DNA of 64,000 nt from NCBI RefSeq assembly GCF_020804225.1, contig NZ_WJBI01000001.1, positions 247,773 to 311,772 on the forward strand, in the 5' to 3' direction. The notes under the pieces were generated by a model. It was given only the letters and a program-made list of their open reading frames with translations, ran no database searches and was not told the origin of the DNA. Origin of the DNA: Methanosarcina sp. DH2. Its GTDB lineage: Archaea; Halobacteriota; Methanosarcinia; Methanosarcinales; Methanosarcinaceae. The translations under genes were made by a program, and so were the position numbers. Below are positions 27,873 through 30,612 of the stretch, one piece after another (position 1 is the stretch's first letter; every line of letters begins with the position of its first letter).

Positions 27873-28327
27873 TTTGCATCCTCAAATGTGTTAAACTATA
27901 CCTTTCATATATTAAAAAAATTAACTTGTAGAAAGTTGCAAAAAACACCTTTCGAAGATGTTTGACCGTTCTACAGGTCGTTAGATCGGTAAAATTAGCC
28001 TGGAAATCTCCTGAAACGAACTTTGAAGGCTTTAAACTCCGCCGGGTCTGTTTCTACATAAATTTGTACGCTACATCATTGAAGTAAATGAACTCTGCAG
28101 AATTTTGAGCAATAATGCTGGCTTCAATAATACTGGTTTCAATAACTCCACTGACTGCAAATCTCTTGAAAATACGGGATCGTAACTGCTTATTGTTGCG
28201 ACCTCGTGCCGCGGATCAAATCGAATTTGATACGTATTGCCGGATAGAAAGTGTCTGTTTTTTGTTTTTCTGGAAACGCTTTAACTAAATTAATTATAAA
28301 AAATAGAGCTATTAAAATAGTAATTAT
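27873..28327. other. Intergenic region, nothing identified
   Basis: No coding or structural signal beyond AT-rich sequence that must contain promoters for the beta-helix gene. A short near-repeat (ataatgctggcttcaat / ataatactggtttcaat) lies near 28110-28146. Confidence 0.4.
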
Positions 28328-28399
28328 AGTCCTGAGCGGATTCGAACCGCTGTCCCGGGCTCCAAAGGCCCGAAGGATTGACCACTACCCTACAGGACT
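28328..28399 (-). tRNA. tRNA-Gln (anticodon UUG)
   Basis: A 72-nt cloverleaf on the minus strand. The acceptor stem AGTCCTG pairs with CAGGACT, the anticodon arm is CGGGC-CTTTGGA-GCCCG with anticodon TTG, and the T arm holds GGTTCGAATCC. CCA is not encoded. Confidence 0.93.
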
Positions 28400-28560: not shown

Positions 28561-28610
28561 TTTTTGTATAATTAATTTAAAGTAATTTACATTATTACTA
28601 TATGATGGAG
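28561..28610 (+). promoter_or_regulatory. Conserved upstream element of structured RNA 1
   Basis: TTTTTGTATAATTAATTTAAAGTAATTTA followed by ATTACTATATGATGGAG (the first run spans 28561-28589). Equivalent blocks precede RNAs 2 (29011-29065), 3 (29619-29680) and 4 (29969-30030). All share TAATTAATTT, an AT run, and TGGAG about 25-35 bp later. The AT core could be the TATA region and the TGGAG the 5' end of each transcript. Confidence 0.55.
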
Positions 28611-28665
28611 CTGGAAGAAATAGGTATGACCGAATAGCGAAGTATTAGCGGATTGTGAAAGAATC

Positions 28666-28774
28666 GCCCGGAGTTACCTGTCCTGCTCTGGCAGTATGTT
28701 TGATGGGAACATATTTTCAGAGCTACTGGGTTGGGGGACACAGTAAGGGATAAAGTGACACCGGGCTTCTTCTT
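28666..28774 (+). ncRNA. Structured RNA family, copy 1 of 4
   Basis: Closing stem GCCCGG (28666-28671) / CCGGGC (28761-28766), extended by GTTAC / GTGAC past an A-A mismatch. Inside is stem GCTCTG / CAGAGC capped by hairpin ATGTT-TGATGGG-AACAT, then a second hairpin ACTGGGT-TGGGGG-ACACAGT with one mismatch. It ends in a U-rich run like an intrinsic terminator. The most diverged copy: its first loop lacks the G5 run. Confidence 0.75.
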
Positions 28775-29126
28775 ACATATGATTTTCTATTTTTTGCATT
28801 TTTCCATTTTATTTATATTCAATTTTTAATTACTTCGATTTGTTTTAATATTTTTAATGCTCTTTTTCTCCTTCGTCTTTCTCTTCAGTCTTATTGCGCA
28901 ATTCTTGCAGCGTGCTTTTTCTGAGTATTCTGATTAAAAATTGGAGTTTGGATATAATTTATGCTGGTATTAAAACTTTTAGCGTGACGATATAATTTTT
29001 TACAGAACAATTTTTGATATAATTAATTTAAAATAATTTATCTTATTATTATATGCTGGAGTTGGGAAATAATAATTGGGAAGTAAAATGGGGTATCTAT
29101 CAACATAATCTACCAACTATGAAATC

Positions 29127-29237
29127 GCCCGGAGAAAACTGATCCCTTCTTCGAAGCAATGCTTGGGGGAGCATAATATTCGAAGAGACTGTGTTGGGGG
29201 ACACAGTGAACGATGCAGTGCCTCTGGGCTTTTTCTT
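29127..29237 (+). ncRNA. Structured RNA family, copy 2 of 4
   Basis: Closing stem GCCCGGAG (29127-29134) / CTCTGGGC (29222-29229), followed by T6. Inner stem CTTCGAA / TTCGAAG carries hairpin ATGCT-TGGGGG-AGCAT; the second hairpin is ACTGTGT-TGGGGG-ACACAGT. Both loops are U-G5. Overlapping open frames on either strand are short, low-complexity and not conserved, so this is called as RNA. Confidence 0.8.
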
Positions 29238-29729
29238 AACGTTTTCTATCCTTTTTTCTACTGCTTTTTTAATTTCTACTTGCTTTTCTATCATTCTTTT
29301 TTAATAGATAGGGCTTTTTTCGATTATTGGTTATTTTACAACAGTTTTTACAATAATTAGCCCAAACTTTCTTTAATTTGTTTTTGAGCAGCTTTTATGG
29401 GCTCCAGATAACGGACTGTCTGGAACTATTTTAAAGAATATCCCGCTGGATTCAAACTTCGAGGAGGACTATAGGTTTGAAAACGAAGTTCAGTTCTACT
29501 TGCTTTTCCTTTTCCTCACGTTTTTTCTTGAAAATTACTGCAATTAAAGCGTATTTAGTGTTAAATCATTTTCGAGCCCTAAAATATTTTGAGTGGGAAT
29601 ATATTTCGCTAGCGGGCAATTTTTGGTATAATTAATTTAAAATAATTAAGAGTCAATTATATATTTGCAACGTGGAGTGAACCGAGAGAACGAGTGAGTA
29701 ATGGGTATGAATGAGTAAGTAAAAGAATT

Positions 29730-29839
29730 GCCCGAAAGCCATTGATCCTGTTCCGGACCGATATGCTTGGGGGAGCGTATCTCTGGAACAACTGTATCGG
29801 GGGCTACAGTCAGAACATAGCGCTTTCGGGCTTTTTCTT
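29730..29839 (+). ncRNA. Structured RNA family, copy 3 of 4
   Basis: Closing stem GCCCGAAAGC (29730-29739) / GCTTTCGGGC (29822-29831) is a perfect 10-bp helix whose bases differ from copy 2 on both sides. Inner stem TGTTCC / GGAACA also differs on both sides. First hairpin ATATGCT-TGGGGG-AGCGTAT; second ACTGTA-TCGGGGGC-TACAGT. A U-rich tail follows. Confidence 0.8.
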
Positions 29840-30061
29840 ATTCCGTCTATACTACGCTTTCCTTCCTAATTTTTCTTTATTTCTTTCTATATTTTTATTA
29901 ATTTTTGCTTAATTTCTTATTATTTCTTTGAAATTTTCAACGTAAAATTAATTTTTGTTTAAATACAAAATTTTGGGTAATTAATTTGAAATAGTAATGG
30001 TATAATGTTATATTCGTGGAGTTGGGAAGTGAGTGAGTAAGGTATAAAATAAAAAAGAAAT

Positions 30062-30176
30062 GCTTGGGGGCCGTTGATCCTGCTCTGGATCAATATGCTT
30101 GGGGGAGCATATCTTCAGGGCTGCTGTGTTGGGGGACACTGTAAATAAGGATAATAGTGCCTCTGGGCTTCTTCTT
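30062..30176 (+). ncRNA. Structured RNA family, copy 4 of 4
   Basis: Closing stem GCTTGGGGG (30062-30070) / CCTCTGGGC (30160-30168) pairs throughout using G-U wobbles. Inner stem GCTCTG / CAGGGC keeps pairing with a G-U. First hairpin ATATGCT-TGGGGG-AGCATAT; second GTGT-TGGGGG-ACAC. The U-rich tail lies 25 bp from the HicB-like gene end. Confidence 0.78.
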
Positions 30177-30201: not shown

Positions 30202-30612
30202 TTACTGTACTTTTTTCTTTATTGTACTTCTTTTGCTCTGGGTCTTATTTCCTGTCACTCTAAAGGTTGTCAGAAACGGGCGTTTGACTGGAAGGGTAAT
30301 GTCCTCTCTTTCGATGTAAAGTTCAACTGCTTCTTTCAGATTTGAAACTGCTTCTTCAATTGTTTTTCCCTGACTTGATATCTCCAGCTCCAGGCATGAG
30401 GATACGTATCGCTCGTTCTTCTTTTGCACCATTGCAGAAAATGTAAACGTTTCTGTCATTTCTGTCATATCTGTCATATCTTTCATACCTGCCATATCTT
30501 TCACACTTGCCATATCATACCTGCTATCTTTTTGTGATATTGCAATGTTTGTGTTAAATATTTTGCAATTAATTGTTTTTTGGATAGATGAAAGTTTAAC
30601 TTGTGTTCTCAT
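30202..30612 (-). CDS. HicB-like protein (UPF0150) with repeated N-terminal start codons
   Basis: The conserved part is residues 52-115: FTFSAMVQKKNERYVSSC, then GKTIEEAVSNLKEAVELYIE, the compact HicB beta-alpha fold. HicB proteins usually act as antitoxins to HicA RNases, but no HicA is encoded next door, so this may be an orphan. The N-terminus is a degenerate 9-18-bp repeat coding for DMASVKDMAGMKDMTDMTEM, with six in-frame ATG codons. HicB proteins normally begin just before FTFSA, so ATG 30459 (85 residues) is the likeliest start; the longer form remains possible. The short spacer 30187-30236 contains a repeated tactgtactt motif at the 3' end. Confidence 0.65.
   Translation of the reverse strand: MRTQVKLSSIQKTINCKIFNTNIAISQKDSRYDMASVKDMAGMKDMTDMTEMTETFTFSAMVQKKNERYVSSCLELEISSQGKTIEEAVSNLKEAVELYIEREDITLPVKRPFLTTFRVTGNKTQSKRSTIKKKVQ

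Follow-up and report, generated by a model that had tools for sequence, protein, structure and literature searches.

The small RNA sRNA162 is a 191-nt, Methanosarcina-specific, intergenic RNA that acts by base pairing (Jager 2012, PMC3510493). Together with sRNA171 it follows an architecture of SL1, SL2, a 39-nt linker, and SL3, and the sRNA162/171 type is present in two copies in M. mazei and in a single copy in M. acetivorans and M. barkeri (PMC3510493). A further conserved Methanosarcina sRNA, sRNA154, has two functional loops and a promoter that bears the NrpR operator GGTA-N6-TACC (PMC3177094, PMC5867862), and sRNA41 (Buddeweg 2018) is reported to mask several ribosome-binding sites (via PMC5867862). 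In bacteria, the LhrC1-5 RNAs of Listeria are multicopy sRNAs with CU-rich pairing sites (PMC4132741, PMC5880928).

An earlier note on the window (the whole 64-kb stretch of DNA analysed here, G000:C25:247773-311772 in a 4.6 Mb genome) had described four tandem structured elements with twin G5 loops, here termed G-loop RNAs. These resemble sRNA162/171 in their similar predicted length, their occurrence as paralogs, and their predicted possession of an own promoter and terminator. They differ, however, in consisting of a leader followed by a three-way junction with twin G-loops, the architectures being compared by published description, and in reaching at least 19 copies per genome, as against one or two for sRNA162/171. 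Unlike sRNA154, the G-loop RNAs are without an NrpR operator, as GGTA-N6-TACC was found within 200 nt before the core in 0 of 163 copies. In the literature consulted on archaeal sRNA families, neither the G-loop RNAs nor the C-loop RNAs introduced below were found described as a family, and individual members may already stand among the listed expressed sRNA candidates of M. mazei.

The G-loop RNA family: fold, distribution, and covariation

The earlier observation of four structured repeats was confirmed. The covariance-model hits all lay on the plus strand, with start-to-start spacings of 461, 603, and 332 bp, and every stem and loop that had been listed was present in the window sequence (Table 1). 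All four copies folded into a three-way junction with two hairpins, in each case better than 200 of 200 dinucleotide shuffles (z -4.2 to -5.4), and seven of the eight hairpin loops carried the G5 run. The one unusual loop, the first of copy 1, is conserved among copy 1 orthologs. Although the tandem array of four is present as described, and no fifth copy was found in the window by the covariance model at E<2, the RNA is not limited to four copies and forms a genus-wide multigene family. In the genome of the window alone, 13 good and about three degenerate copies were found, spread over several contigs.

Table 1. Coordinates of the predicted G-loop RNA genes and the flanking tRNA gene in the window, and of the C-loop RNA genes elsewhere in the same genome
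Feature	Position	Strand	Remarks
tRNA-Gln (UUG)	28327..28399	-	Rfam tRNA hit; head-to-head with sRNA cluster
Copy 1 promoter core TATAATTAATTTAAAGTAATT	28567..28587	+	Family-specific motif
Copy 1 5' leader	28606..28659	+	Subfamily-specific; 80-92% pairwise identity, 7 orthologs
G-loop sRNA copy 1 core and U-rich end	28660..28774	+	Loop 1 UUUGAUGGGAA; loop 2 G5 28733-28737
Copy 2 promoter core TATAATTAATTTAAAATAATT	29018..29038	+	Genome-wide motif search
Copy 2 5' leader	29057..29120	+	Least conserved among the four leaders
G-loop sRNA copy 2 core	29121..29237	+	G5 at 29165-29169, 29196-29200
Copy 3 promoter core TATAATTAATTTAAAATAATT	29627..29647	+	Genome-wide motif search
Copy 3 5' leader, GAACGAGTGAGTAATGGGTATGAATGAGTAAGTAAA type	29673..29723	+	83-88% pairwise identity, 6 family members
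G-loop sRNA copy 3 core	29724..29839	+	G5 at 29769-29773, 29799-29803
Copy 4 promoter core GGTAATTAATTTGAAATAGTAATG	29977..30000	+	Alignment with other copies' promoters
Copy 4 5' leader	30016..30055	+	90-95% identity at -60 to -21 before core, 7 orthologs
G-loop sRNA copy 4 core	30056..30176	+	G5 at 30101-30105, 30131-30135
C-loop RNA gene	G000:C26:134175-134267 (L200:1976-2068)	+	
C-loop RNA gene	G000:C5:8488-8560 (L328:1489-1561)	+	

G-loop RNA was detected in 31 of the 31 Methanosarcina genomes examined, at one to at least 19 copies each (19 being a floor, as 19 candidates were scored per genome), and in four of four genomes of the sister genus g5, with 0/203 among the remaining genomes of the class in the covariance-model search. 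Class-wide, this amounts to 35 of 238 genomes, with E-values down to 1e-34. A first model, built from 11 copies, gave matches in the order that were confined to Methanosarcina and g5, and a class-wide search with a second model of 147 copies gave the same result, under strict filters that can lose weak matches. All named public matches were to Methanosarcina spp., for example Methanosarcina sp. 2.H.T.1A.6.

The collected set comprised 163 distinct copies from 32 genomes, some of them degenerate or truncated, and 147 of these were used for covariation. Standard pairs occupied 93.5% of cells at the 40 base pairs, and 475 double-change cells were observed, compared with 123 in shuffles and 55-133 with slid pairing, in an alignment that was fitted to the model and so favours pairing. 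In a MAFFT alignment of 11 copies, double changes were already seen at 16 pairs. The closing stem, P1, is extended by a helix AUCC/GGAU with a single bulged base, in which 77.7% of cells were paired. That pairing is kept despite differing stems, as had been claimed from the four copies, was borne out by changes on both sides at 34 of the 40 pairs among the 147 distinct copies, and covariation thus persisted with many more copies aligned. The four copies matched no described RNA family, giving zero matches in Rfam 15 at the gathering threshold or at E<=1. Because the covariation held with more copies and no described family matched, the reading of the elements as structured RNA stands, and because the RNA recurs in 35 of 238 class genomes and shows covariation, it is not a product of chance. 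Judged on this evidence, the four repeats are paralogs of one large, conserved family of predicted small-RNA genes.

GGGG was kept in loop 1 of 118 and in loop 2 of 134 of the 147 copies, and exact UUGGGGGA was present in loop 1 of 92 and in loop 2 of 84. The apex can be read in two ways, with a U-G pair closing GGGG or with UUGGGGGA open. The surrounding stems vary, which suggests selection on the G run itself. A binding of the 16S anti-Shine-Dalgarno sequence was considered for two parts of the RNA and rejected for both: the conserved UGAUCC mostly pairs with GGAU within the RNA, and the G loop reached only -8.4 kcal/mol with the 16S tail, compared with -14.5 kcal/mol with the C-loop repeat.

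Promoters, leaders, and history of the cluster

Beyond what the earlier note described, the unit includes a specific promoter and a conserved 5' leader. Each copy is preceded by a long T-/A-rich block ending in TATAATTAATTTAAAATAATT, followed 20-26 nt on by UGGAG. When this promoter element was searched genome-wide with up to three mismatches, 14 of the 17 hits preceded family copies, the other three being about what the reversed control gave. At the same tolerance, the promoter core was found in 153 of the 163 copies, compared with 16 after shuffling of the upstream DNA. Among orthologs of copies 1, 3, and 4 (the copy 3 group taking in dispersed relatives of that copy), promoter, leader, and core were mostly 75-95% identical, and identity was no higher than 60% by about 20 nt past the CUUCUUCUU end. 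For copy 1, the leader was about as conserved as the structured core, with 34-56% identity from about 25 nt past the 3' end; for copy 4, the last 20 nt before the core were only 42% identical among seven orthologs. Subfamilies 1, 3, and 4 each have a distinct conserved leader. A coding function of the leader was ruled out by eye from the differing frames and stops between copies. In the leaders of 6 of the 163 copies (e.g., L016 and L015), a palindrome GGTA-N5-TACC was seen, whose spacer is a base shorter than that in the published NrpR operator, GGTA-N6-TACC.

From the promoter and the terminator-like sequence we infer that the G-loop copies are transcribed, and where transcription would start and terminate. 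Each copy would thus be a separate small-RNA gene with a family promoter, a leader of about 40-65 nt, a three-way-junction RNA of about 117 nt, and a U-rich end, giving a predicted transcript of about 160-182 nt. A promoter and a terminator-like end of its own, both recognised at the level of sequence, are what a stand-alone gene for a trans-acting sRNA would have.

The cluster was found beside tRNA-Gln(UUG) in 16 of the 20 fetched loci with copies, including those of all four g5 genomes, and a URO-D-type gene and an antiporter-like gene recurred at its flanks. In a tree, copies 1, 3, and 4 each grouped with counterparts from other species, and several cluster members therefore predate speciation within the genus. 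The tRNA-Gln (UUG) gene marks the ancestral locus of the cluster. Directly after the cluster, the window holds a small ORF (30202-30612, minus strand) that looks HicB-type by eye, part of which reappears beside the sRNA cluster in other genomes. Several dispersed copies (L014, L015, L016, L088, and orthologous loci) are followed on their own strand, after about 200-700 nt, by a MEDS or MASE3 sensor-kinase gene.

C-loop RNAs as candidate partners

Three tandem copies of TCCCCCAA, the exact complement of the loop, were found at one site in the genome of the window, within a second structured RNA. C-loop RNAs (Ca, Cb, Cc, and Cd, of about 60-160 nt) have a 10-bp stem of the GUGAGCGG.../...CCGCUCAC type and a C-rich, G-poor loop that folds open; in Cb, GUGAGCGGGC...GCCCGCUCAC encloses an open loop of CUAUUCCCCCAA repeats (fold z -4.2). 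Among 76 distinct sequences, compensatory changes were seen at several pairs of the stem, and the loops of 67 hold 0-2 G. The only Rfam match at the C-loop loci was a tRNA, and a search of the literature for a C-rich anti-Shine-Dalgarno RNA in Methanosarcina returned nothing relevant. With a model built from Ca and Cb, C-loop RNAs were detected in 30 of the 31 Methanosarcina genomes (the exception being 60% complete), in all four g5 genomes, and in most other genera of the Methanosarcinaceae (E 1e-13 to 1e-2). Matches in further families of the order were weak, with rough E-values, and the weakest may be chance.

Ca lies upstream of Cb in tandem, and some genomes also have Cc downstream; all share one strand and have TATA boxes of their own. 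Their locus is near an ORF interpreted as the RFC large subunit and, in the loci that were scanned, near a tRNA reading as Val(UAC). In the genome of the window, no copy of Ca was found at the Cb locus; its Cb gene is adjoined by a 377-aa ORF (L200:2580-3713, minus strand) that by eye resembles a TnpB of the IS605 type. All 73 nt of Cd are identical in this genome, G149, G162, and G169, the four Methanosarcina genomes in which it was compared. In genome G177 (L213), the Cb array has grown to nine TCCCCCAA repeats, compared with two to three in most species. A pattern match in G082 (C52, L203) was discarded as a C-loop RNA, being a 15-nt intergenic repeat array of AAGTATGGTTCCCCC instead. A role of the C-loop RNA as a repressor of ACDS through its ribosome-binding sites was also dropped, the ACDS sites being ordinary GGAGG/GGGG with no special match.

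Given these two families, the reading tentatively preferred is that the G-loop RNAs act in trans, pairing with the C-loop RNAs as Shine-Dalgarno-like decoys, and our confidence in it falls a little short of even. The twin UUGGGGGA loops would pair loop-to-loop with the C-rich loops (UCCCCCAA, CCCC) of C-loop RNAs, which would themselves bind the G-rich ribosome-binding sites of mRNAs; by mimicking such sites, the G-loop RNAs would titrate the C-loop RNAs, and the subfamily leaders could give every paralog an added specific role. For this model, we infer the physical pairing, the direction of the decoy, and the mRNA targets. C-loop RNAs could mask ribosome-binding sites as sRNA41 is reported to do, and sRNA41 may itself be one of them. 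LhrC1-5 are likened to the C-loop RNAs in how both would work; we know of no partner RNA family for LhrC1-5.

The commonest G loops match the commonest Cb repeats over exactly eight letters, and the first Cb repeat matched hairpin 2 over 10 nt at -16.7 kcal/mol, which only 2 of 1000 shuffled loops equalled. In the genome of the window, the C-loop RNA is the only place with tandem TCCCCCAA. Among 81 genomes of the family it was found in 12, all of them in Methanosarcina or g5, so that the tandem exact complements are confined to the genera in which G-loop RNAs occur. Of these 12 cases, 11 are Cb RNA, whereas the remaining one, in g5, is another kind of repeat. However, matches between G-run and C-run homopolymers arise easily. 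Hairpin 1 was not clearly better than chance against the C-loop repeat, 5.8% of shuffled C-rich loops being as good, and for hairpin 2 of copy 3 and hairpin 1 of copy 1, 65% and 88% of shuffles, respectively, did as well. Ordinary co-folding gave little gain for four of five RNAs, by a method whose reach does not extend to kissing loops. G160, G165, G166, and G168 have G-loop RNAs but one detected C-loop RNA each, whose loop in G160 and G168 reads ACCCCCCAC without a flanking match; G160, with at least 19 G-loop copies, has only the Cd type, matching just the C run. Conversely, C-loop RNAs are present in genera for which the class-wide search detected no G-loop RNA, among them g4 with its Ca- and Cb-like RNAs. 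Across genomes, loop and repeat sequences showed no sign of coevolution. A search for conserved mRNA targets likewise yielded none, and the best-conserved stretch of the C-loop RNA (GGGGTTATACTATGGAAAAG) closely matched only the RNA gene itself. With exact matches and shared confinement on one side, and the weak hairpin 1 and variant loops, G160, g4, and the lack of coevolution on the other, pairing is therefore regarded as the leading, unproven mechanism.

Other readings of the G loops and what the families would mean

Another reading takes the twin G loops as a motif for protein binding, the multicopy RNA titrating or scaffolding an RNA-binding protein and its many gene copies serving dosage. 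In CsrB and RsmZ, a single RNA bears several hairpin loops that contain G and are nearly identical, and titrates CsrA; a comparable arrangement would fit the two near-identical loops on variable stems, the many paralogs under the same promoter, and a G run that is conserved more strongly than the neighbouring bases on which base pairing would rely. The loop sequence of CsrB/RsmZ differs from that of the G-loop RNAs, however, and protein binding does not alone explain why a second conserved RNA in these genomes holds the exact loop complement in tandem; this reading is judged unlikely, though one to be taken seriously. Slightly less likely still, but also a serious rival, is that leader and loops pair directly with mRNAs in the manner of classic trans-acting sRNAs, the leader giving each paralog its specific targets, as has been described for M. 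mazei sRNA162 with its linker. Published Methanosarcina sRNAs do pair with mRNAs (PMC3510493), and the leaders are specific to their subfamily and conserved to about the same degree as the core. TCCCCCAA, however, shows no general enrichment, with 116 genome sites (about 18 of which fall within the sRNA genes) compared with 103 for the reversed control, and C runs were likewise not enriched at the start codons of 136 genes, a small sample. The earlier suggestion that the G loops could pair with C/U-rich sites gained a candidate partner in the C-loop RNA, but not an enrichment of the complement across the genome, and the earlier reading of the repeats as a whole is partly supported.

Among the dispersed copies, several are followed on their strand by a sensor-kinase gene of the MASE3 (8/60 scanned genes) or MEDS (6/60) type, as might be expected if the copies were cis-acting leaders or terminators of downstream genes. 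As many of these loci are orthologous, few of the kinase cases are independent. A cis-regulatory leader would be followed by a constant type of gene and would be without its own terminator; the downstream genes were instead found to vary and are often 200-2000 nt off, no gene is evident between the tandem copies, every copy comes with a promoter of its own, and conservation ends sharply after the U-rich end. A cis-acting role is accordingly held to be very improbable. The same small likelihood is given to a non-autonomous mobile, or merely duplicating, DNA repeat without cellular function. The range of copy number (from one to at least 19) and the degenerate or truncated copies would suit such an element, but compensatory changes, conserved leaders, and an orthologous cluster at the side of tRNA-Gln in both genera speak against it, and it is disfavoured.

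The preferred reading, pairing of G-loop with C-loop RNAs, can be extended to a mutually restraining loop-loop network in which bivalent G-loop RNAs and multivalent C-loop RNAs (about 3-9 C-rich repeats on a stem RNA that is older and spans the family) oppose a mimic of the ribosome-binding site to its mask. Such a network is put forward as a possibility, and a rather doubtful one; if it were true, both RNA families would be undescribed, and their multivalency could also allow RNA-RNA assemblies.

To our knowledge, the mode of action has been established for very few small RNAs of archaea. If pairing between the two families is real, they would form a natural RNA decoy circuit in archaea, and, because it is present in nearly every examined genome of the genus, this G-loop/C-loop circuit could be tested in M. 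mazei and M. acetivorans, both of which are genetically tractable. The earlier observation holds and is part of something larger than it described, and the candidate partner family is wider than the G-loop family. Even without pairing, the finding comprises a multicopy, genus-wide RNA family and an older C-loop RNA that are absent from the RNA family catalogue.
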